55,997 bases of DNA from Pseudomonadota bacterium. Lineage in GTDB: Bacteria; Pseudomonadota; Alphaproteobacteria; Rhizobiales; Hyphomicrobiaceae. Under the pieces are notes generated by a model. The model saw only the letters and a list, made by a program, of their open reading frames with translations. It was not told the origin of the DNA and ran no database searches. Location of the stretch: assembly GCA_018242255.1 (NCBI GenBank), contig JAFECH010000351.1:1-55997 (forward strand), given 5' to 3'. The position numbers and the translations under genes are program-made. Below are positions 22,885 to 32,959 of this stretch, piece by piece (within the stretch, counting starts at the first letter, position 1; each line of letters starts with the position of its first letter).

Positions 22885-22911
22885 GTCAACTGCGGCGGCG
22901 AAGAGGTCAAG
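22885..22911 (+). promoter_or_regulatory. Direct-repeat operator GTCAAC-N15-GTCAAG before the kinase gene
   Basis: GTCAAC at 22885-22890 and GTCAAG at 22906-22911, 21 bp apart, followed by TCCT. The same arrangement and orientation relative to the gene occurs before the APC permease and the dehydratase. A 21-bp direct repeat fits an AraC-family activator, and an araC gene lies just after the kinase gene. The second half-site ends 94 bp before the kinase start. Confidence 0.6.
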
Positions 22912-23005
22912 TCCTCTTTGCCGCCGCTTCGTAGTGTGCTCTCAATTGGAATTGGTGTGGCCGAGCAGTCGGATCGCACGGGAACACACGGGATTTCGAA
23001 CGACA

Positions 23006-24073
23006 ATGACGGGTTCCGACGAACTAACCCACGAAGAGCTGCTGCAACGCCTCCAACACGTGGCAGAACGTTCGGTAAAGCGGTTTGGCATGCCCGCCGG
23101 CGTCCCCATCAAGCTCATCAACGTATCCGAAAACGCGACCTATAAAGTCGAAGACGACACGGGCCGAAAATGGGCGCTCCGCGTTCATCGCGAAGGCTAT
23201 CATTCGCGCACGGCGATCGCGTCAGAATTGGCGTGGCTTGCGTCGCTGCGCGAATCCGGCGGCGTTGCCACGCCCGTGCCTGTCCGCGGCCTCGATGGCG
23301 AATACATTCAGACCATGGCAGGCGACGGACTGCCGAATCCGCGCAATGTCGTGCTCTTCAACTGGGAAAATGGCGCCGAGCCCGAGCGCTCGGATGTCGC
23401 CGGTTTTGAGCTTCTCGGCGAGACGGCTGCGCGGATGCATGCCCATGTTCGCAAATGGCGCCGTCCGGTCTGGTTCGAACGTCATTCCTGGGATTTCGAT
23501 ACCAGTCTCGGGAGCCGCCCGCATTGGGGCTATTGGAAGAACGGCATGGGCATGACGTCGGAGGCGATGGAAGCCTTCACAGAAACCGTCGGCCTTATCA
23601 AACAGCGCTTGGAAGCCTTCGGCAAATCACCGGATCGCTTTAACCTCGTCCACGGCGACATGCGCCTCGCGAATCTCCTGATGGACGGCAGCACGGTGAA
23701 GGTGATCGACTTCGACGATTGCGGCTTCTCATGGCTGCTTTACGATTGCGCCACCACCGTCTCGTTCTTCGAACACACGCCCGAGGTGCCCGAGCTTTTG
23801 CAGGCCTGGGTGCGCGGATATCGCCGCATAGGCACTCTGAGCGCCGAAGAGGAGAACGAAATAGCGACCTTCGTGATGTTGCGCCGCTTGCTCCTCGTCG
23901 CCTGGATCGGATCTCATTCGGAAACCGAGCTGGCGCAGTCGATGGGCGTCGACTACACGCGCGAGTCGATACCCCTGTGCGAAAAATATCTCTCGGATTA
24001 TGGCAGGCCCCTCGAAGCCAAGGTCGTTGTTCCGACCGATAAAAAAGGCGTTCTCGGCCGGCTGTTCGGTTGA
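23006..24073 (+). CDS. APH-fold small-molecule kinase, probable amino-alcohol kinase
   Basis: A 355-residue protein of the aminoglycoside phosphotransferase/choline kinase fold, close in look to homoserine kinase type II. Catalytic loop LVHGDMRLANLLM (Asp218), metal-binding motif VIDFDDCGF (Asp235), and an N-terminal nucleotide lobe with NATYKVEDDTGRKWALRVHR. Kinases of this family phosphorylate choline, ethanolamine, homoserine or 1-amino-2-propanol. The nearby phospho-lyase-type PLP enzyme (31622) makes an amino-alcohol kinase role likely: phosphorylate, then eliminate phosphate and ammonia to an aldehyde. The ATG at 23006 follows the putative operator; an upstream in-frame extension shows no conserved sequence. 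No resistance function is implied. Confidence 0.75.
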   Translation: MTGSDELTHEELLQRLQHVAERSVKRFGMPAGVPIKLINVSENATYKVEDDTGRKWALRVHREGYHSRTAIASELAWLASLRESGGVATPVPVRGLDGEYIQTMAGDGLPNPRNVVLFNWENGAEPERSDVAGFELLGETAARMHAHVRKWRRPVWFERHSWDFDTSLGSRPHWGYWKNGMGMTSEAMEAFTETVGLIKQRLEAFGKSPDRFNLVHGDMRLANLLMDGSTVKVIDFDDCGFSWLLYDCATTVSFFEHTPEVPELLQAWVRGYRRIGTLSAEEENEIATFVMLRRLLLVAWIGSHSETELAQSMGVDYTRESIPLCEKYLSDYGRPLEAKVVVPTDKKGVLGRLFG

Positions 24074-24148
24074 ATGCTGCAGCGCAATTGTGCATTTGCA
24101 ATTAATGAATGCCGAATAATTCAGCGTGCACGCCGGTTGACCCAGCGG

Positions 24149-24173
24149 TGACATCTGATAGCCTTTTTCTGAC
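24149..24173 (+). promoter_or_regulatory. Weak 21-bp TGAC repeat before the araC-type gene
   Basis: TGAC at 24149-24152 and 24170-24173 repeat with the same 21-bp period as the other three sites, with a further TTGAC at 24137-24141. The orientation is opposite to the others and the match is only four bases, so autoregulation is a weak suggestion. Confidence 0.2.
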
Positions 24174-24202
24174 AGAGATAGGCATTTTCTCATCAGGAAC
24201 CG

Positions 24203-25282
24203 ATGGGAACCGGCATCATAGACACAATGGCGATGGACGCCGGCAGCGCGATTGGCAGAGGGGCCGATCCCTCCGTTCTTGCGTCGGCGGCAACCGGCAT
24301 CGTTAAGTTTATCGAGCGCCAGCGGGGGGACGTCGATCGTATTTTCGGCAATGCCGGTATCTCGCCCGAAATGGCAGGCTCGCCGACGCTCCAGTTCAGC
24401 CTCAGTTCCTATTGCCGCCTGTTCGAAGAAAGCGCGCGGATTACGCGCAACGACAACTTCGGATTATGGTTCGGCCACGCTTTCGATCCGCGCGATCTCG
24501 GGCTCTGGGGCTACGCTTCGCTCTCGGCGCCGACATTGGGCGCCGCCCTTGAAACCCTCGTCGGTCTCTTTCCGCTGCACCAGCAGTCGTCTTCGATGGC
24601 ACTCAAGATGTCACCCGAAGGCCTTATGCGGCTGGAATACCGGGTCGATGCTCCGCAAATCGTTGAGCGCCGCCAGGACGCCGAACTGTCGCTCGGTATG
24701 TTCCTGAATTTCATTCGCGAGGCTATGGGTCATAGCTGGGCGCCGGAAGAAGTTCATTTCGAGCATCCCAAGCCCGAGCAATGGCGCGAGCACGAACGTG
24801 CCTTCGCGGCGCCGGCTTTCTTCGCGCAGCCGACAAACGCCATCGTCTTCCGCCCGCAGATCCTGAGGCACATCATGCCGAGTGCCGATCCGCGGCTGAT
24901 GTCGGCGATGAAGCTTTGCCTTGAACGGCTTTCAGAACGCCAAGACGTCCGGTTCAGTGTGACCGATCGTGTTCGCAGCGCCGTCCGCGCCAAGCTGCCT
25001 GAAGGCTTTCCGCCGATCGAAGGCGTCGCCGCCGAGCTGCGGCTGCCCCTCTCGACCATCCAACGCGAACTTCACTATGATGGTTTGAGCTACAGCACGC
25101 TGGTCGAGAACACGCGCCGCGACCTGGCGCTGTCCTATGTGCGCCAGCGCCAATTGTCGTTTTCAGAAATCGCTTTCTTGGTGGGATATTCGGAGCTTTC
25201 CGCTTTCAGTCGTGCGGTCCGCCGCTGGACGGGGCTGTCGCCGCGAGCGCTACGTGCCGAAGTTCTCCGTAACCACGGTTGA
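24203..25282 (+). CDS. AraC-family regulator with arabinose-binding-type N-terminal domain
   Basis: A 359-residue regulator of the OruR/ArgR-like AraC group. The N-terminal 200 residues look like the Arabinose_bd (PF12625) sensor (FGLWFGHAFDPRDLGLWGYA followed by SLSAPTLGAALETLV). The C-terminal AraC DNA-binding domain is clear: IEGVAAELRLPLSTIQRELH and FSEIAFLVGYSELSAFSRAV followed by RRWTGLSPRALR. It is the only AraC-type gene within the amine/diol locus and is the best candidate for binding the 21-bp direct repeats found before the kinase, the permease and the dehydratase. The ATG at 24203 has AGGA seven bases upstream. It converges with the SDR gene, 48 bp away. Confidence 0.88.
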   Translation: MGTGIIDTMAMDAGSAIGRGADPSVLASAATGIVKFIERQRGDVDRIFGNAGISPEMAGSPTLQFSLSSYCRLFEESARITRNDNFGLWFGHAFDPRDLGLWGYASLSAPTLGAALETLVGLFPLHQQSSSMALKMSPEGLMRLEYRVDAPQIVERRQDAELSLGMFLNFIREAMGHSWAPEEVHFEHPKPEQWREHERAFAAPAFFAQPTNAIVFRPQILRHIMPSADPRLMSAMKLCLERLSERQDVRFSVTDRVRSAVRAKLPEGFPPIEGVAAELRLPLSTIQRELHYDGLSYSTLVENTRRDLALSYVRQRQLSFSEIAFLVGYSELSAFSRAVRRWTGLSPRALRAEVLRNHG

Positions 25283-25330
25283 TCTTCGGTCCCGGCGCGC
25301 TCGCGGCGCATAATCTAAATCTGCACCCTC

Positions 25331-26110
25331 TTAAGCTTGTGCGAGTGCGTCCATGCTCTCAGGTAGGATTTGACCGCCATCGACGATGATCGTCTGTCCA
25401 GTGATGTAAGCGGCCTCCTTCGAGGCCAGGAACAACGCCGCATAGCCGATGTCTTCCACTGTGCCCAGCTTGTTGAGCGGGATCGATGCCGCCATCGACT
25501 TCTCATAATCGGGTCCGAGTGCAGCCAGGCCTTCCGTCTTGATGTTGCCCGGCAGAACCGCATTGACGGTAATGCCGTATTTCGCGAACTCGATGCAGGC
25601 CGTGCGCATGAAGCCGAGCTGACCGGCTTTCGTCGCGCCATAGTGCGCCCAGCCCGGAAAGCCGGTGACCGGGCCCGTGATCGACGACGTGATCACAATC
25701 CGCCCCTGGTCCGATTTCTTCAGGTACGGCAGGCACGCCTTGATGGGCAGGAATGTGCCCTTGAGATTGGTCGACGAAACGAAATCCCAGTCTTCAGGTG
25801 ACAGGTCTTCGATCTTGGTCTGCGGGAAGATGCCGGCGTTCGCGCAAAGAATGTCGATGCCGCCGTGAGCACTCGCAGCCGCTTCAGCGAGCATCTGCAT
25901 GTCGCCCATGCTGGTAATGTCGGCTGCGAAGCCTTTTGCCGTCCCGCCGGCTTTGCGGAATTCTTCCGCCGTCGCCTCCGCCTCGTCGAGATGGCGGGAC
26001 ACGACCAAGACTTTGCCGCCGTTCTTCGCAAACACGCTGGCTATGCCTTTGCCGATTCCTTTGCTGGCACCGGTCACGATGACGGATTTGCCTGCGATAG
26101 ATGTGAGCAT
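25331..26110 (-). CDS. Short-chain dehydrogenase/reductase
   Basis: A 259-residue classical SDR. Seen: nucleotide motif VTGASKGIGKGIA, NAG (LCANAGIF), catalytic Ser in ITSSITGPVTG, and YxxxK in HYGATKAGQLGF. The Arg after the cofactor site (VSRHLDEAEATAEE) would allow NADP(H) binding. SDRs of this FabG-like type often sit in amino-alcohol loci as alcohol or amino-alcohol dehydrogenases, but the substrate cannot be read from sequence. It is downstream of the permease gene and separated from it by a strong hairpin (26147-26180), so it is probably expressed from readthrough or its own promoter. GGTCGACG-type sites are not seen before it. Confidence 0.82.
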   Translation of the reverse strand: MLTSIAGKSVIVTGASKGIGKGIASVFAKNGGKVLVVSRHLDEAEATAEEFRKAGGTAKGFAADITSMGDMQMLAEAAASAHGGIDILCANAGIFPQTKIEDLSPEDWDFVSSTNLKGTFLPIKACLPYLKKSDQGRIVITSSITGPVTGFPGWAHYGATKAGQLGFMRTACIEFAKYGITVNAVLPGNIKTEGLAALGPDYEKSMAASIPLNKLGTVEDIGYAALFLASKEAAYITGQTIIVDGGQILPESMDALAQA

Positions 26111-26146
26111 TGGGCTTGCTCCCCTTTTTCGTGCGGTTACTTGATG

Positions 26147-26180
26147 AAAAGGCGGGCGCCGGTTTCAGCGTCCGCCTTTT
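26147..26180 (-). terminator. Hairpin terminator between permease and SDR genes
   Basis: A 13-bp stem (26147-26159 with 26168-26180, one G-U) with an 8-nt loop, flanked by T-runs on both strands (six T on +, four on -). Both neighbours are on the - strand, so it would end, perhaps partly, the permease transcript before the SDR gene. Confidence 0.7.
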
Positions 26181-26209
26181 TTGGGTTTCGTTTTATATGA
26201 ACGTATCGA

Positions 26210-27757
26210 CTAATCGTTGAGGACCATACGGCCGATGCGGGCGTGAGCGGCAGGCGAGATCACCCGGAGCGCCAGACCCCAGACCAGACCCACGCCGAGA
26301 ATGATGAAGGCGATCAGCGGAATGCGGCTGCCGAAGCCACCGGTGCCGCCGAAAGTCTCAAGGTTCACGACCAGAAGGTACACAAGGTAGACCTGCGAAA
26401 GGAACGCGATCGCGGGTGCAATCAGGCCGGCGAAGATGTTCACTTCACCAGGATGGTTGGCCCGGAAATACACGATAATCGCAATCGAGACGACAGCCTG
26501 CAGGATGAGCAGGAGCATCGTGCCGAGAACGGCGAGCATCGTGTAGACGCCGAGATAGGCCTGGGCGTTCGGATCGTTCGTTCCGGTGAAGTAAGCGAAC
26601 AAGATGATCCATAGCGCGGCAAGCATCGTCTGGACCACGGATGCCACGTGGGGGCTCTTGTGCGTCGGATGCGTCTTGCCAAGAACGCCCGGCAGCACGC
26701 CCTCACGGCCGAGTGAGTACATGTAGCGCGCGGCCGTATTGTGGAACGCCATGCTGCAAGCGAACGAGCTGGTCAGGATCAGAAGAGCCATCGCTTCGTT
26801 GGCCCACTGTCCGACAAACTCAGTCAGCGGCGACAGGAAGAAGTTGCCCGAGTCACCTACCGCTTTCGCCAGCATCTCGCCCTCAGTCGGATAGGCCGCG
26901 ATCGCGCACCAGCTTGTGATGATGTAGAAAATGCCGAGGCCGATAACGGAATAGTACAGTGACCGCGGGATAATGTGCTTCGGGTTGACCGATTCTTCCG
27001 CATAGTTCGGCGCCATCTCGAAGCCGACCCATGACCAGAACGCCATGAACACGCCGACCGCCGCCGCGCCGGCCGCGATATCGACCGTGCCGACTTTCTG
27101 GGCTGCCACCGGGGTCATGACGTGCAAAACATTGAGTGATTCAAGGTTAAACGCGCCCGGACCTTTTGCGACCAACACGCCGACGTCGAAGATCGTCAGC
27201 ATGATGACTTCAAAAACCAGTGCCGCTCCCAAGACTTTCACCGACAGCTGCACGTCCTGATAGGAGAGGATCGAAGTCAGCACGACGACAAAGAGAGCGA
27301 GATAGATCCAAGGTACATTGATGCCGAAATGCGTTTGGAGCCACGAGTTGCCGAAGAAGGCGAACAAGCCGGTAAGGGAGGCTTCGAACACGCTGTAGGA
27401 CGCCAAAGAGGCAATACCAGCCGCCATGCCGACGTCGCGCCCCAAGCCCATGCTGATGAACGAATAAAAGCCGCCAACGGACGATACCTTGCTGGCCATC
27501 GCCGCGTATCCGACGGAGAAGATGGTAAGCACGATCGTGGCGAGCAGGAACGCTGCCGGAACGTAGATGCCGTTGCCGAAGCCCGCTGCGAACGGCACGT
27601 TGCCGAGCATGGCGGATTCGGGTGCCGCGCCGGTCACCGTCAAAAACAACACGCCAATTAAGCCGATGGCCTTGGCGTGCAACTTGTCTACTGACCCATC
27701 CTTACTTACATCGAAGCTCTCTTGGGCTTCGAGAGCACTAGTATTTGGTGATGTCAC
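26210..27757 (-). CDS. APC-family amine/amino acid permease
   Basis: A 515-residue membrane transporter with about 12 hydrophobic segments, of the amino acid-polyamine-organocation superfamily. The first helix has the APC signature (GLIGVLFLTVTGAAPESAML) and the consensus amphipathic loop region GFEMAPNYAEESVNPKHIIP is present. The start chosen is GTG 27757, preceded by AGGGGGAG; an ATG 24 codons upstream would add a Cys/Arg-rich, non-conserved stretch. Related permeases occur in ethanolamine and amino-alcohol loci, so it likely imports the amino substrate. An operator-like direct repeat lies 171 bp before the start, its inner half at the -35 position of a possible promoter. Confidence 0.85.
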   Translation of the reverse strand: MTSPNTSALEAQESFDVSKDGSVDKLHAKAIGLIGVLFLTVTGAAPESAMLGNVPFAAGFGNGIYVPAAFLLATIVLTIFSVGYAAMASKVSSVGGFYSFISMGLGRDVGMAAGIASLASYSVFEASLTGLFAFFGNSWLQTHFGINVPWIYLALFVVVLTSILSYQDVQLSVKVLGAALVFEVIMLTIFDVGVLVAKGPGAFNLESLNVLHVMTPVAAQKVGTVDIAAGAAAVGVFMAFWSWVGFEMAPNYAEESVNPKHIIPRSLYYSVIGLGIFYIITSWCAIAAYPTEGEMLAKAVGDSGNFFLSPLTEFVGQWANEAMALLILTSSFACSMAFHNTAARYMYSLGREGVLPGVLGKTHPTHKSPHVASVVQTMLAALWIILFAYFTGTNDPNAQAYLGVYTMLAVLGTMLLLILQAVVSIAIIVYFRANHPGEVNIFAGLIAPAIAFLSQVYLVYLLVVNLETFGGTGGFGSRIPLIAFIILGVGLVWGLALRVISPAAHARIGRMVLND

Positions 27758-27905
27758 GTTGGCTACTCCCCCTGGGTTGCAGTCAGCCGAACATCCAGGA
27801 TCTGTTCGGCGCGATCTTAAGTCGTACACGTACTATCTGCCGCCGATCCACAGCTGATTGCCGCGGACCTGCATTGGTCATCCGGTCGTACATGGTCGAA
27901 GAGCG

Positions 27906-27955
27906 TATATGTGCGGCGCAGTGCAAGGTTTGACATTGTGGTGTCAAAACTTGAC
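27906..27955 (-). promoter_or_regulatory. Direct-repeat operator and promoter before the APC permease gene
   Basis: Read on the - strand: GTCAAG (27955-27950), N15, GTCAAA (27934-27929), N17, CATATA (27911-27906). The second half-site sits where a -35 box would be, as for class II AraC-type activators. The + strand also shows a dyad, TTTGACA-6-TGTCAAA (27929-27948). Same repeat and orientation as the sites before the kinase and the dehydratase. Confidence 0.6.
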
Positions 27956-27960
27956 CTACC

Positions 27961-28656
27961 TCAGCTCAGCTCCATGATCTCCTTCAGTTCTTTGCTCGAC
28001 ATGACGTGGCAGTAGATCATGTTCATGATCTCGAGCTCCTTGTGGTGAAGCTCGTCCGAGCCAGCCGCGCAACAGTCCTCGACCACGACGACAGCGAAAC
28101 TTTCGTCCGCCAAGCTCCTCACCGTCGATGAGACACATTGGTCGGTGAAAATCCCGCAGCAGACGACGGTCTTGATCCCCAGGTTCGTAAGGATAAGGCG
28201 CAGGTTCGTTCCCGTCAGTGCACTGTCCGTTGTCTTGGTGACTACAATTTCATCGCCGACCGGCGCGAGATCGGGCACGATCTGCGATGGCGGCTCGTCC
28301 TTCGGCAGCAGCAGGTTGTTCCAGCCCGGCATCTTCTGCGACAGCGACCTGTCCCGCCCGTCCTTGGTGTGGCAGGCGATGCGGGCGAACAGGCATTCGA
28401 TGCCGTTTTTGCGAAAGGTCGCGAGCAAATCCTTGGTCCGCGGTAGCACGGTCTGGTGCATGCGGTCGTGGAAGGGCGTCCAGGCATCATACCGCCGCTG
28501 GTCCTCGCCCGTAAGCAACGCCCGGTCGGGCCGTTCGAGGTAGGTATTCTGGACGTCGATGATGAGAAGGGCGGTGTGGGCTTTGGAAAGGTCGGGGTCG
28601 GCTGGCTCCGGCGCGCCGTCATAGTAAATGGATCGGTAGGCTGTCTTCCAGCTCAT
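27961..28656 (-). CDS. Isochorismatase-family cysteine hydrolase
   Basis: A 231-residue protein with the alpha/beta hydrolase-like isochorismatase fold and the nicotinamidase/N-carbamoylsarcosine-amidase style triad: Asp34 (LLIIDVQNTY), Lys141 (IVVTKTTDSAL) and Cys174 (FTDQCVSSTVRSL). Family members cleave amides, ureides or enol ethers. It follows the dehydratase small-subunit gene by 10 bp on the same strand and is presumably co-transcribed, so it may act on an amide or carbamoyl form of the pathway substrate or product. The ATG at 28656 has AAAGG upstream; a longer in-frame start would run back into the small-subunit gene. Confidence 0.85.
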   Translation of the reverse strand: MSWKTAYRSIYYDGAPEPADPDLSKAHTALLIIDVQNTYLERPDRALLTGEDQRRYDAWTPFHDRMHQTVLPRTKDLLATFRKNGIECLFARIACHTKDGRDRSLSQKMPGWNNLLLPKDEPPSQIVPDLAPVGDEIVVTKTTDSALTGTNLRLILTNLGIKTVVCCGIFTDQCVSSTVRSLADESFAVVVVEDCCAAGSDELHHKELEIMNMIYCHVMSSKELKEIMELS

Positions 28657-28666
28657 GCGTGACCTT

Positions 28667-29095
28667 TCAATATCGCTTCTTGTAGAGGGATCGGCGCTCG
28701 TAGACGTCGGCGGCTTCCTCGATGAAGGCGGCGACGCCGGTCGCACCATAGACGTCCCTGAGTTCCTTGGCCGCCGCCAGCAGCTCGTCTTTCGAACCCG
28801 CGCGGCCGGGTCGCAAAAGCTCGTAGGTTCGCATGATCACGTCCTGCGGTACGTCGACAAGCTCAGCCCCCCGCTCGAAGTTCGCCGCAAGCGTCGGCCG
28901 CCCGGCGGCTTTCGCGATGTCCGCCTGCTGTCGCAGCGCACGGCTCGTGATCCGCAGATCTTCCAGGCCCACCTTATCTGTCAGAACCGCGTCGAGGCTG
29001 ATGTCGTCAAGCGTCTTGCCGGTTTTCGTTTCGACGATGTCCGGGCGGCGCTCGGCCAGTGGATAATCGGCAACGGAAAGTGGTTTGTCGCTCAT
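28667..29095 (-). CDS. B12-dependent diol dehydratase-like small subunit
   Basis: A 142-residue protein of the PduE/DhaB3 (dehydratase small subunit) family. Seen: YPLAERRPDIVETKTGKTLD followed by DISLDAVLTDKVGLEDLRIT, the family core, then SRALRQQADIAKAAGRPTLA, FERGAELVDVPQDVIMRTYE and LLRPGRA. It is shorter than the Klebsiella subunit (about 173) because the N-terminal extension is absent. The start overlaps the stop of the large-subunit gene (ATGA on the - strand, 29092-29095), implying coupled synthesis of the complex. Confidence 0.9.
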   Translation of the reverse strand: MSDKPLSVADYPLAERRPDIVETKTGKTLDDISLDAVLTDKVGLEDLRITSRALRQQADIAKAAGRPTLAANFERGAELVDVPQDVIMRTYELLRPGRAGSKDELLAAAKELRDVYGATGVAAFIEEAADVYERRSLYKKRY

Positions 29096-31374
29096 GCGGC
29101 CGCTCCGAGGAACTTGATGTCGATCTCTTCGGGCTCGGCGCCTTCGGAGGTCATCTCGGTTTCGATGGCGTAAATCATTGAGACGCGGGCGTGGTAGCGC
29201 GAGCCCATGGCTTCTCCGCGTGTCGGCACAATCACGGGCTCCGGCATCTCTCCGCGCGCATAGGCCGCCGCGTTGAGGCCCATGCGCTTGTAATGGTCGA
29301 GCTTCGTAATCGGCGAGTTCGAGAACAATTCGAGGTTGTTATGCGGCAGCCGGTCCTTCTGGTGGATCACGGCTGTGCCTTTCGCCTGGATGCCGATCCC
29401 GACCCCGGAACCCGCCAGCCGAGCCGCGCTGAGGCCGAGGAACGACGTGTCGGCGGTATGCAGCATCCGCACGACGCGAGCCGTGCAGCCGCCTTCTGTG
29501 ATCCCCTCGATCAGCACGCGAAGAATGGCCGACAGCGGATGCCCCGCGAGCGTCTGGAAGAGCTTCACTCCGAATGCCGGGCTGATGCCGATGACGACCT
29601 CGCGCGGATTGCCCGTCGCCGCCGCCGGGCCGACCGGTCGATAAGCGATGCGCGTAACCTCGGCCGGGCGGAATTGCGCTTCACCGCGCAACACCTCCTG
29701 GCGGGTCAGCACATCGCGGATGGCGACCAGTTCCTCACGTCGCGCCTCGCTTACCCTGTAGCCTGTGCCAGGGCCGCGATAATCGTTCGGATCGTTGACG
29801 GCGCTGACGATCTTACCGTCGCGAACGACGGCCGAGGTCTGCAGGTAATCGCCGGATACACGTAGCCGGACCAGCTTCAAAAGGTTTTCGGCTTCTTCCC
29901 GGAAACCGCGCGCCGCCAGCGCCTTGATGACGTCGATGACCGTAATTGACCGGGCAAAAATGGTTTCGCTGATCCGTCCGACCTCGCGGCCCGAAAATGT
30001 CCGCGTCTCGTCGGAACCCGATGCCGCAATGACGCTCTGCTTCATGTCGGCCGTCGGCTTGGCGAGGCCCAGCTCTTCCAGCACGGCGCTGATCGCGTCC
30101 ACAGCCCGGGCGCGAAGATCCATGATCTGCGCTTCGCCAACGGGCGTCAGGCCGCCGTCGGCCTCGAAGTCACGCTGCAGGACAAGATAATCCTCCAGCT
30201 CTTCGCCGTTGAGCAGCGATGGATTGAACGAGTTGTCGTACTTCAGGATCGAGCCGAAGCCCGAGCAGATGAGATCCGATCCGGCGATCAGGTACGGCAG
30301 GATCTTCGCCCCGACGCGAATTTCGGACTCGGTCGCCCGCGCATCGTTGCCCGATGCGCATTCGAGGTCGAGCCAGACCGCGATCAGGTTCTCCGCCATC
30401 AGTTCGCGCATGCCGCCCGGCACTGTGCAGGTGACCGGTGCGCCGTCGACGCCGCCGTTTTGTGTGCCTTGTACGCCCATGGCGCGCTGCAAGCAGAGAC
30501 ACCGGGCTTCAAGATAGAGCAGCGACTTGCGCTCGTGAAATCCCATCAGCAACTCGGACCCGGCACCGGACGTGCAGCGCATTTTGATCCCGCGCGAGGC
30601 GTAAGCTGCGGCCAGGAATGCCTTCGACCAAGGAGTATCGTCGCCGTCGATGAAGCTTTTCTCAGTGCCGTAGACCGATAGCGTTTCCGCATACGAGGTG
30701 AAGCCCGCCATGCCGATCTTCAGCTCTTCGGCTTCCTCGCTCGAACATTGAAACAGCGTGCCCCAACGCCCGACCGACGCCCCCACCGCACAGGCGACAG
30801 CGTTGGACCACGAGTTCCGCGCCACCCGCATCGTCGTTTCGATCTCGTCGAAACCGAAGGCGACGGCCGTCGCCGCATCGGCGGCCATCTGTAGCGGATC
30901 GTCCTTGGCGTTGGTGACGTGCCCCTGGTTCCCCGGCGTCTGCCGCGCCCGCATCTTGCCGTAGGCGAACGCGATCTCAAGCGATGACAGATGCGCGACG
31001 ACTTCCGCCAGTTTTGCCGGCGTCATGCCATGCGCCAGCCTGACGAGCGTGCTGCGCGGCACATTCATATCGACGAGCATGCGCGCCACTTCCATTGACG
31101 GCATGGCCATCGCTTCCGGCGCGATCTCGGGATCCAGATGGTACTTCGATATGAAGATATCGATCATATCGAAATCGCGGACGGCGACGCCGTCCATCGA
31201 CTCCACGACGCCCTTTCCCATCGCGAAGCCAGGCTTGGGATCGTCGGGGCTGTTGAATGCTGCGAAGCCGCTTGAAGCATCCTCGACGGCAAACTTGTCG
31301 AGCCTCAACGGACGTTCGTCCCAGTCGGAAAACCGCTTCCAGCGATTGGCGCGAACGTGCGACTCTTCGGTCAT
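29092..31374 (-). CDS. B12-dependent diol/glycerol dehydratase-like large and medium subunits fused
   Basis: A 760-residue adenosylcobalamin enzyme. Residues about 1-555 match the PduC large subunit (RARQTPGNQGHVTN, GFDEIETT, SYAETLSVYGTE, GDDTPWSKAFLA, LDLECASGND, GDYLQTSAVV), and about 565-735 the PduD medium subunit (VVIGISPAFGVKLFQTLAGH, HNNLELFSN). In enterobacteria these are separate genes. Residues equivalent to Klebsiella Gln141, His143, Glu170, Glu221, Gln296, Asp335 and Ser362 are all kept (here Gln150, His152, Glu179, Glu230, Gln305, Asp344, Ser371). Two pocket residues differ: Asp310 for Ser301 and Ala345 for Gln336. The enzyme would turn a vicinal diol or similar substrate into an aldehyde. 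ATG 31374 was chosen over one nine codons upstream. No reactivase gene is present. Confidence 0.9.
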   Translation of the reverse strand: MTEESHVRANRWKRFSDWDERPLRLDKFAVEDASSGFAAFNSPDDPKPGFAMGKGVVESMDGVAVRDFDMIDIFISKYHLDPEIAPEAMAMPSMEVARMLVDMNVPRSTLVRLAHGMTPAKLAEVVAHLSSLEIAFAYGKMRARQTPGNQGHVTNAKDDPLQMAADAATAVAFGFDEIETTMRVARNSWSNAVACAVGASVGRWGTLFQCSSEEAEELKIGMAGFTSYAETLSVYGTEKSFIDGDDTPWSKAFLAAAYASRGIKMRCTSGAGSELLMGFHERKSLLYLEARCLCLQRAMGVQGTQNGGVDGAPVTCTVPGGMRELMAENLIAVWLDLECASGNDARATESEIRVGAKILPYLIAGSDLICSGFGSILKYDNSFNPSLLNGEELEDYLVLQRDFEADGGLTPVGEAQIMDLRARAVDAISAVLEELGLAKPTADMKQSVIAASGSDETRTFSGREVGRISETIFARSITVIDVIKALAARGFREEAENLLKLVRLRVSGDYLQTSAVVRDGKIVSAVNDPNDYRGPGTGYRVSEARREELVAIRDVLTRQEVLRGEAQFRPAEVTRIAYRPVGPAAATGNPREVVIGISPAFGVKLFQTLAGHPLSAILRVLIEGITEGGCTARVVRMLHTADTSFLGLSAARLAGSGVGIGIQAKGTAVIHQKDRLPHNNLELFSNSPITKLDHYKRMGLNAAAYARGEMPEPVIVPTRGEAMGSRYHARVSMIYAIETEMTSEGAEPEEIDIKFLGAAA

Positions 31375-31420
31375 GGGATCTGTTCTCGGTGGTGGCGGCA
31401 TCGAATTGAATCGCAGTCAC

Positions 31421-31434
31421 GATACCCCGGTATC
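31421..31434. promoter_or_regulatory. GATACC-CC-GGTATC dyad before the dehydratase gene
   Basis: Six-base perfect arms around a 2-nt centre, 46 bp before the dehydratase start and 10 bp from the inner half of the direct repeat at 31445-31471. It overlaps the place where the -10 box would be, so it could be a repressor site or just a promoter-proximal palindrome. Confidence 0.35.
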
Positions 31435-31444
31435 CGCGCCGGGA

Positions 31445-31471
31445 TTTGACCTCAGCCGCCCTGAAGTTGAC
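31445..31471 (-). promoter_or_regulatory. Direct-repeat operator in the dehydratase / PLP-enzyme divergent region
   Basis: On the - strand GTCAAC (31471-31466), N15, GTCAAA (31450-31445), followed by TCCC. It is the third copy of the 21-bp repeat and has the same orientation towards the dehydratase gene (start 31374, 70 bp away) as the other copies have towards the kinase and permease genes. It may also serve the divergent gene starting at 31622. Confidence 0.6.
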
Positions 31472-31621
31472 GTAACACGCTCATGGCTCGTGGCGACCAA
31501 GGCAGCGAACTGAACAGACAATGCAATGGGCGGTCAAGCTGCAAGGCCACCGGCCGCTTATATAGTCCTTGGGAATGTGCCCAACGGCACCGAAGTACGA
31601 AGGAGCCTCTCCGAGGTCCGC

Positions 31622-32959
31622 ATGGAAGTCACAAAGAAGATCCTTGAACTCAACGCTTTCGACATGAATGCGGCCGCAGGGCTGTCGCCGGAGGTAAAAG
31701 CGCTGATCGGCCGACGGCGGGCGACCTTCGGACCGACCTCCATGCTGTTCTACGAAAAGCCGCTTAACCTTGTGCGCGGCGAGGGCGTGTGGCTTCACGA
31801 CGCTGACGGCACCCGTTATCTCGATGCTTATAACAATGTGCCGTCCGTGGGCCATTGCCATCCGCGCGTCGTTGAAGCCGTCGCCCGCCAGATGGGCACG
31901 CTCAACACCCACACGCGCTATCTCTATTCCAACGTCTACACATATGCGGAACGGCTGCTCGGCACCATGCCCGGCGACGTCTCGAATATCGTCTTCACCT
32001 GTACCGGCAGCGAAAGCGCCGACTTTGCGCTTCGTGTCGCCCGCGCAATAACGGGCGGTAGCGGCTTCATCGTGACCGACAACGCCTATCACGGCAACAC
32101 CTCGGCAGTGACCGAGATCTCTCCATCCTCTGCCAGCGCCGAGCCGCGACCTCCCTACATTTTCCTCGTCCCCGCGCCAGACACCTATCGTGAGAGCCCT
32201 GAGACGGTTGGACAACGCTTGGCGAAAGACATTCGTGCAGCCATCGTCAAGATGGACGCCATCGGCATTCGCTTTGCGGGCTTCATTGCCGACAGCATCT
32301 TTTCGAGCGATGGCGTATTTCCCGGCGAGCCCGGTTTCTTGCGAGAAACGCTTGAAGCCGTCCATGCTGCGGGCGGCGTCTACATCGCCGACGAGGTGCA
32401 GCCGGGCTTCGGCCGCACGGGCGAAAAGATGTGGGGCTTCGACCGCCACGGCCTCGTGCCGGACATGGTCATCATGGGCAAGCCCATGGGGAACGGCTTT
32501 CCGATGGGCGGAGTCGCCATCAAGCCCGACTTGCTGAAGACTTTTGGCGCAACGTCCGGTTACTTCAACACCTTCGGCGGCAACCCGGTCGCGGCCGCCG
32601 CCGGCCTCGCGGTTTTGGACGTATTGCAGGACGAAGGCCTGCAGCAGAACAGCTTCGAGACCGGCGCCTATCTGCGTTCGGAAATTCGTATCGCCGGTGC
32701 CGAGGGCGGGTGCATCGGCGATGTTCGTGGCGCTGGGCTCTATATCGGCGTTGACATCGTCAAGGACACTCGGACGCGCGAGCCGGATCGTGACACGGCC
32801 GAGAAAATCGTCAACGGCATGCGCGACCGCAACATCCTGATCGGCATAGCCGGTGGTCACGGGAACGTCTTGAAGATCCGTCCGCCACTCTGCTTTAATC
32901 GCGAGCACGCCGATATCTTCATCGACGGACTGAGGGGCGCGTTAGCCGACGCGTCCTGA
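31622..32959 (+). CDS. Class III PLP enzyme, probable amino-alcohol-phosphate phospho-lyase or aminotransferase
   Basis: A 445-residue fold type I PLP protein. Seen: [31 protein letters not shown] (phosphate-binding loop, 128-138), [19 protein letters not shown] (Asp257), and the PLP lysine Lys287 in [13 protein letters not shown]. The wording [11 protein letters not shown] and GKPMGNGFP is that of the ethanolamine-phosphate phospho-lyase (ETNPPL/AGXT2L) branch rather than of ordinary omega-aminotransferases. With the APH-type kinase it would make a phosphorylate-then-eliminate route. ATG 31622, after GAGGT, was chosen because the homologous core starts there; an ATG 96 bases upstream would add residues without conserved features. 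It is 35 bp before an aldehyde dehydrogenase gene. Confidence 0.85.

Follow-up and report, generated by a model that had tools for sequence, protein, structure and literature searches.

A 21-bp direct repeat as the predicted site of an AraC/XylS-family regulator at a probable amino-alcohol locus in Hyphomicrobium and relatives

Regulons in which an AraC/XylS-type activator reads direct repeats are of a known kind. At the Pm promoter of the TOL plasmid, the AraC-type activator XylS uses two direct repeats, and the sites of activator and polymerase overlap (excerpt of PMC5481539). In Enterobacteria, the AraC-type activator EutR responds to ethanolamine and AdoCbl, with its site just upstream of the -35 element (excerpt of PMC5821096). 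Clusters for 1-amino-2-propanol (Aut) in Rhodococcus and Mycobacterium combine an APH-type phosphotransferase, an aminotransferase, a permease and an aldehyde dehydrogenase with an amino-alcohol dehydrogenase (excerpt of PMC6620236). No description of the regulon reported here, a member of the first kind, was found in the open-licence literature searched.

The window, by which we mean the whole analysed stretch of 55,997 bases, carries an AraC/XylS-family regulator (24203..25282, + strand) that is the proposed activator; domain profiles recognised PF12625 and HTH_18 in it, and its double helix-turn-helix match to PF12833 reached 48.1 bits against a cut-off of 33.6. A preliminary description of this DNA had read a 21-bp direct repeat, GTCAAS-N15-GTCAAR, before three genes as the mark of one regulon. 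The three copies were found exactly where and on the strands it had given, and no other match exists in the window. GTCAAC-N15-GTCAAG (22885..22911, +), with a -10-like TAGTGT at 22932-22937, lies in the promoter of an APH-family small-molecule kinase (23006..24073, +). GTCAAG-N15-GTCAAA (27929..27955, -), with a -10-like element within 27902-27910, precedes an APC-family permease (26210..27757, -), whose place is taken by an ABC transporter in several relatives. GTCAAC-N15-GTCAAA (31445..31471, -), with a -10-like TATCGT at 31419-31424, lies before an operon encoding the fused large and medium subunit of a B12-dependent diol-dehydratase-type enzyme (29092..31374, -), its small subunit (28667..29095, -) and an isochorismatase-family hydrolase with an inferred start (27961..28656, -); the subunit families PF02286, PF02288 and PF02287 were all found in the dehydratase. 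An SDR oxidoreductase (25331..26110, -) lies downstream of the permease, and a class III aminotransferase-fold enzyme (31622..32959, +), resembling the C-terminal part of PRK06148, is divergent from the dehydratase. No cobalamin riboswitch or other known RNA was detected in the window at gathering thresholds.

The likeness to XylS/Pm lies in the pair of direct repeats, the AraC-type regulator and the overlap of regulator and polymerase sites, which is predicted in our case and excerpted in theirs. The XylS repeats, however, are 15 bp long with boxes TGCA and GGTA, whereas here each 21-bp repeat holds one TGTCAAR, and the regulator subfamily and the targets are different. With EutR, as far as the excerpt of its report goes, the locus shares an AraC-type protein, a site next to the -35 position and targets of the ethanolamine type. 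Orthology to EutR was rejected, as the window regulator showed no significant similarity to E. coli K-12 EutR (best BLASTP E 13); EutR, unlike the window regulator, has no PF12625 match, and no microcompartment shell family was found among the window proteins scanned. The Aut clusters, in the excerpted part of their report, likewise keep an APH-type kinase, an aminotransferase, a permease and an aldehyde dehydrogenase together, with a GntR regulator and a microcompartment shell, whereas the window locus has an AraC regulator and a diol-dehydratase-type enzyme. The closest family name is QhpR, as the window regulator exceeded the cut-off of the NCBIfam model NF049968 (304.5 against 250 bits). 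Its predicted targets, on the other hand, are a kinase, a transporter and a dehydratase, and no quinohemoprotein amine dehydrogenase gene was found among the window proteins scanned. The name fits as that of a family and not clearly as that of a function, and the targets suggest an amino-alcohol regulator, which is a caution against taking the QhpR label as function here.

Shuffled versions of the window held 0.01 matches to the repeat on average, and none of 100 shuffles reached three. The whole genome (4.28 Mb in 404 contigs) had ten matches, against three for the reversed control. Of the seven outside the window, six fell within an ORF of 150 aa or longer (either strand) and one (L007) did not; among the window sites, only that of the dehydratase is covered by such an ORF (162 aa, opposite strand). 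A TANNNT element 19-21 nt downstream was present in 3/3 window sites vs 0/7 of the other matches. The composite of repeat and -10 occurs in this genome at the three window sites only, and a similar density elsewhere, which would have spoken against a regulon, was not observed.

Of 100 relatives, own genome included, 23 had a match to the dehydratase and 21, at E 1e-60, had one to the regulator. We searched the composite pattern GTCAA-N16-GTCAAR-N19..21-TANNNT in 18 of the 22 listed Hyphomicrobium genomes, 11 with the regulator and 7 without it; two regulator-less genomes (G004 and G009) and two more diverged ones with the regulator (G005 and G012) were left out. Exactly three composite sites were found in each of the 11 genomes with the regulator, at the promoters of the kinase, the transporter and the dehydratase (the kinase copy of G016 sits at the end of another contig and was assigned by sequence and place). 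Thus, the repeats stay ahead of the same three genes in the relatives, as proposed. Six of the seven regulator-less genomes had none, while G021 had two copies of one identical stretch, and the reversed control gave no match in 17/18 genomes and one in G019. The permease is replaced in six Hyphomicrobium genomes by an ABC transporter whose binding protein is of the polyamine type, and the site precedes this ABC transporter. Both G005 and G012 have the kinase and permease sites; no exact dehydratase site was found in the former, and the dehydratase promoter of the latter lies off the contig. In a neighbouring genus of the family, two genomes deposited as Hyphomicrobium sp. (G043 and G059) have the regulator and no dehydratase match, and keep the kinase site (L085 and L086). 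In the 11 Hyphomicrobium genomes with the regulator, own included, none of the 10 core columns of the half-sites varied at any of the three promoters; in the spacer 5-7 of 15 columns were invariant, and in the upstream flank 1-2 of 20.

Alignment of the regulator led to 80 named loci, 46 with regulators of at least 55% identity and 33 with more distant ones (37-50%), a locus with a partial regulator (L152) having been dropped. In the 46 loci, GTCAA followed by GTCAA occurred 87 times at a period of 21, in 41 of the loci, and 0-3 times at each of the remaining periods between 14 and 33; no copy of the reversed word was found at period 21, and five of the loci had no exact site. When all 5-mers were counted at all periods, GTCAA/TTGAC at 21 ranked first with 41 loci, followed by a GC-rich word at period 27 with 36. 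The genes behind the 87 sites were tallied as 27 kinases, 17 ABC solute-binding proteins, 11 second class III aminotransferases, 10 aldehyde dehydrogenases of the acetylating type, 10 dehydratases, 6 permeases, 2 SDRs and 1 DeoR regulator, and three sites were judged to be outside promoters, two inside genes (L095 19337 and L100 6455) and one within a transporter operon (L116 5170). The regulon holds in Hyphomicrobium, Bauldia, Dongia, Aestuariivirga and others. In three loci, of Dongia mobilis and two others (L112, L116 and L184), two AraC paralogues of the clade were seen, adjoining the kinase site and the dehydratase site, respectively.

The 84 sites left after removal of the three were collapsed by similarity to 68, with a profile of about (C)TGTCAARTY-N11-KGTCAAGY. 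This profile refines the preliminary description in two respects. The ten fixed core bases stood, as noted above for Hyphomicrobium, while the sixth base of the first half varies (A24 C14 G26 T4 in the 68 sites); YCYY after the second half holds in the three window sites, while in the 68-site profile it is informative at the first position alone (C34 T22 A12). A position weight matrix trained on 56 sites, from which the window and its seven nearest loci (L073-L079) were excluded and in which other loci deposited as Hyphomicrobium were retained, ranked the window sites first to third with scores of 32.4, 26.5 and 23.5, followed by 11.7 for the next position of the window. The best match in each of 12 regulator-less stretches scored 0.6-15.9.

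The distance to the -10 element is also fixed. TANNNT started 20 nt after the 27-mer in 39 of the 68 sites and 21 nt after it in 15 (together 54/68), 19 nt after it in one, and at any other offset in at most three. At the permease, the preliminary description had paired the repeat with CATATA at 17 bp and had taken the inner half as a -35 position; the repeat was confirmed, but the promoter aligns with the others at 19-21 nt, with TACGCT at 21, and the inner half is an incomplete -35, which at a spacing of 17 bp from the common -10 would share about 3 bp with the -35 position. The sites are direct repeats about two helical turns apart in a fixed orientation to the gene, with the proximal half at or overlapping -35 and at a fixed distance from -10. 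In class II activation, as by RhaS or AraC, the activator reaches a few bases into the -35 element. This is the geometry seen here, because the -35 hexamer at 17-bp spacing would share its first three bases with the second half-site; with the proximal half overlapping -35 and no canonical -35, the regulator is most likely a class II activator.

We therefore consider it very probable, on comparative grounds, that the repeats are the sites at which the AraC-type protein of 24203-25282 would act as class II activator of the regulon; physical binding, and activation rather than repression, are what we infer from the arrangement. A dimer or two monomers of the protein would bind the two TGTCAAR-like half-sites, two helical turns apart, with the promoter-proximal half ending 20-21 nt ahead of -10 and overlapping by about 3 bp a -35 position that lacks a canonical hexamer. 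The protein would hold RNA polymerase at promoters that are weak without it. An inducer, presumably an amino alcohol of the ethanolamine type, would bind the N-terminal domain, and the induced regulator would switch on the kinase, the permease (perhaps with the SDR) and the dehydratase operon, as well as the aminotransferase through an asymmetric fourth site. As described earlier, none of the three window matches stands before ydcS or the SDR gene; a boundary of the regulon had been drawn from this. The SDR as a boundary found no support, because the gene lies behind the permease on the same strand and, in 2 of the 46 loci (L115 and L129), is preceded by a GTCAA-N16-GTCAA site of its own. In the permease-SDR gap (26111-26209), a hairpin flanked by A and T runs was read by eye, which could end or attenuate transcription between the two genes.

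Co-occurrence of regulator and site was examined in 40 loci selected by the dehydratase, not by the regulator (G086, with a classical dehydratase, was excluded). The fetched stretch carried a site in 23/27 loci of genomes with the regulator vs 1/13 of genomes without it (23/4/1/12, Fisher p 3.7e-6 with relatedness ignored); absence of the regulator was defined at E 1e-60, or at E 1e-90 with five candidates scored per genome, and two of the 13 regulator-less stretches were short (G170, 12.5 kb, and G176, 11 kb). The sole regulator-less locus with a site (G381) has a 43% identical AraC homologue beside it. As for the four regulator genomes with no site at the dehydratase, three (G048, G096 and G150) have the regulator on another contig, with a dehydratase contig that is short or ends in the dehydratase, and the fourth (G299) has an unlinked dehydratase; the regulator's own stretch does carry sites in all four (L082, L115, L090 and L103). 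Five regulator-less genomes (G033, G280, G357, G369 and G427) keep the kinase, SDR, transporter, hydrolase and dehydratase; with the same gene set and neither regulator nor site, they must be controlled otherwise. The regulator and the target genes are inherited together. Independent pairs on the dehydratase tree were 3-4 concordant and none discordant when G048, G096 and G150 were left out (median p 0.125), and on average 2.7 concordant vs 0.5 discordant when they were included (median p 0.625). This test supports the link between regulator and site and is not significant alone.

Only seven of the 33 loci with distant regulators (37-50%) had the exact repeat, six from Acetobacter and one from Komagataeibacter, where the match sits elsewhere in the locus. 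In the six Acetobacter loci (L131, L133, L136, L137, L138 and L140), a 44-45% identical regulator is divergent to eutB-eutC, and the same 21-bp repeat with TATCAT 21 nt behind it precedes eutB; an ethanolamine permease is present where the contig reaches. The other 26 of the 33 loci had no exact repeat, which is the usual case at about 44-50% identity. Among them, in Magnetospirillum, Bradyrhizobium and others, eutBC adjoins the regulator and no exact repeat was found before eutB; several such loci keep the proximal TGTCAA with GYCTAA or similar as the distal half. A quick tree of 84 regulators separated one supported group of 50 rows, made up of 46 of the 47 kinase/SDR-type loci and four unlabelled ones, from the eutBC types; a single Roseomonas row fell outside this group, and the deepest forks were weak. 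From the Acetobacter repeats beside eutBC, the regulator clade looks amino-alcohol responsive, and ethanolamine or a similar amino alcohol is the probable inducer, a point that the eutBC link makes directly testable in Hyphomicrobium facile DSM 1565 (L079). In the window's own genome, eutB lies elsewhere (contig C285) with a weaker second match (C349), and neither contig has a strict site; eutBC as the first step of the pathway was rejected on this ground. Ethanolamine may thus be handled apart and may not be the substrate.

Could the repeats belong to a different regulator, with the AraC gene a mere neighbour? In G071 and G118, araC and the second aminotransferase are separated by a DeoR-type gene, and in L107 the DeoR gene is itself behind a site. 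However, 12 of the 13 regulator-less dehydratase stretches are site-free, though several keep the other target genes, and the 13th has the AraC homologue; the site follows the AraC clade into the eutBC context of Acetobacter and to an acetylating aldehyde dehydrogenase in Bauldia; and no match to the DeoR gene of L107 was found in the stretches from the window's genus. We regard this explanation as improbable. Even more improbable is that the AraC-type protein binds and represses, or acts both ways. A repressor could equally block the -35 region that the site overlaps, but in the site profile the hexamer at 17-bp spacing (AAR and the three bases after it) bears little resemblance to TTGACA, which is what activator-dependent promoters would show, and XylS and EutR, in the excerpted parts of their reports, act as activators at or just upstream of -35 (PMC5481539, PMC5821096).

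As TGTCAA is the reverse complement of TTGACA, the repeats might also be tandem -35 boxes of divergent promoters on the opposite strand. This was rejected as very unlikely, since no -10 was found at the right distance (-24 to -19, at most 0.15 bit), while columns of 0.8-1.3 bit lie downstream on the site's own strand. Chance, to which the seven of ten genomic matches lying elsewhere might point, has practically no weight and is already refuted by three matches against 0.01 expected, the excess at period 21, the composite counts and the invariant core columns. Activation by the adjacent AraC-type protein is the reading that we retain, and comparison supports the claim that the repeats tie the locus into one regulon.

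A candidate fourth site (31512..31538, +) was found before the aminotransferase. It is asymmetric, with GAACAG as distal half and a perfect proximal GTCAAG (31533-31538) 20 nt ahead of a -10-like TATATA (31559-31564). In all 11 Hyphomicrobium loci shown, AACTGAACAG is followed by GTCAAG, and this is missing in the regulator-less L047. GTCAA with TANNNT at 19-21 nt was present in 23 of 29 aminotransferase rows, some loci being counted twice; the window, L037, L038 and L040 (and their doubles) fail the TANNNT rule because their -10 does not end in T. Variants of GGACA were seen as the distal half in L048, L049 and L053. The stretch is likely a fourth site serving the aminotransferase, to judge from this sequence pattern. 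It is less sure than the other three because of its low matrix score (4.2, rank 8 in the window), its distal half being poor. No site of its own was found for the araC gene in 30 rows inspected, for ydcS in 7 rows inspected, or ahead of the aminobutyraldehyde dehydrogenase and the second aldehyde dehydrogenase in the rows inspected; two aldehyde dehydrogenase rows with very distant coordinates (L041 and L046) are artefacts, the gene being truncated where the locus ends. Enzymes of the PRK06148 type can act as phospho-lyases, and it is possible that the aminotransferase-fold enzyme is one. The fourth site would place it in the regulon with the kinase, as a pair of kinase and phospho-lyase would need.

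As the predicted landing site of the adjacent regulator, the signature suggests joint control of these genes as a single pathway, in which an amino alcohol is probably broken down. That pathway would unite a kinase, a transporter, a B12 enzyme and an aminotransferase of unassigned substrate, and the regulator clade gains a defined predicted site and a complete small regulon from sequence alone. For the substrate, we compared residues in 48 distinct dehydratase sequences. The catalytic residues were kept, and Q141, H143, E170, E221, Q296, D335 and S362 were conserved wherever covered (46-48 of the 48). On the other hand, the substrate pocket differed from that of the classical enzymes, which have Ser301 and Gln336: position 301 was Asp in all 46 distinct sequences, and position 336 was Ala in 43, Thr in 2 and Cys in 1 of the 46. 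The two rows of G086, a classical enzyme of 43-46% identity, had Ser at 301 and Gln at 336. In the excerpt of PMC7674605, one binding mode of glycerol has its C3-OH facing Ser301, and the kinetics are altered by S301A and Q336A. An acid in the substrate pocket suggests a cationic substrate, so the substrate of this subfamily is probably cationic. A fuller scenario, which we put forward as doubtful, is a new, aerobic pathway free of microcompartments, where a B12 dehydratase with Asp301 and a small residue at 336 would act on a cationic amino alcohol such as diethanolamine (an N-hydroxyethyl amine), releasing an aldehyde and a smaller amino alcohol, with the kinase and the phospho-lyase to finish; the AraC clade would then be amino-alcohol sensors reading TGTCAAR repeats, from the eutBC of Acetobacter to this locus. 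The isochorismatase-family hydrolase (27961-28656) is weakly biuret-hydrolase-like and is kept between the dehydratase and the transporter in many loci.
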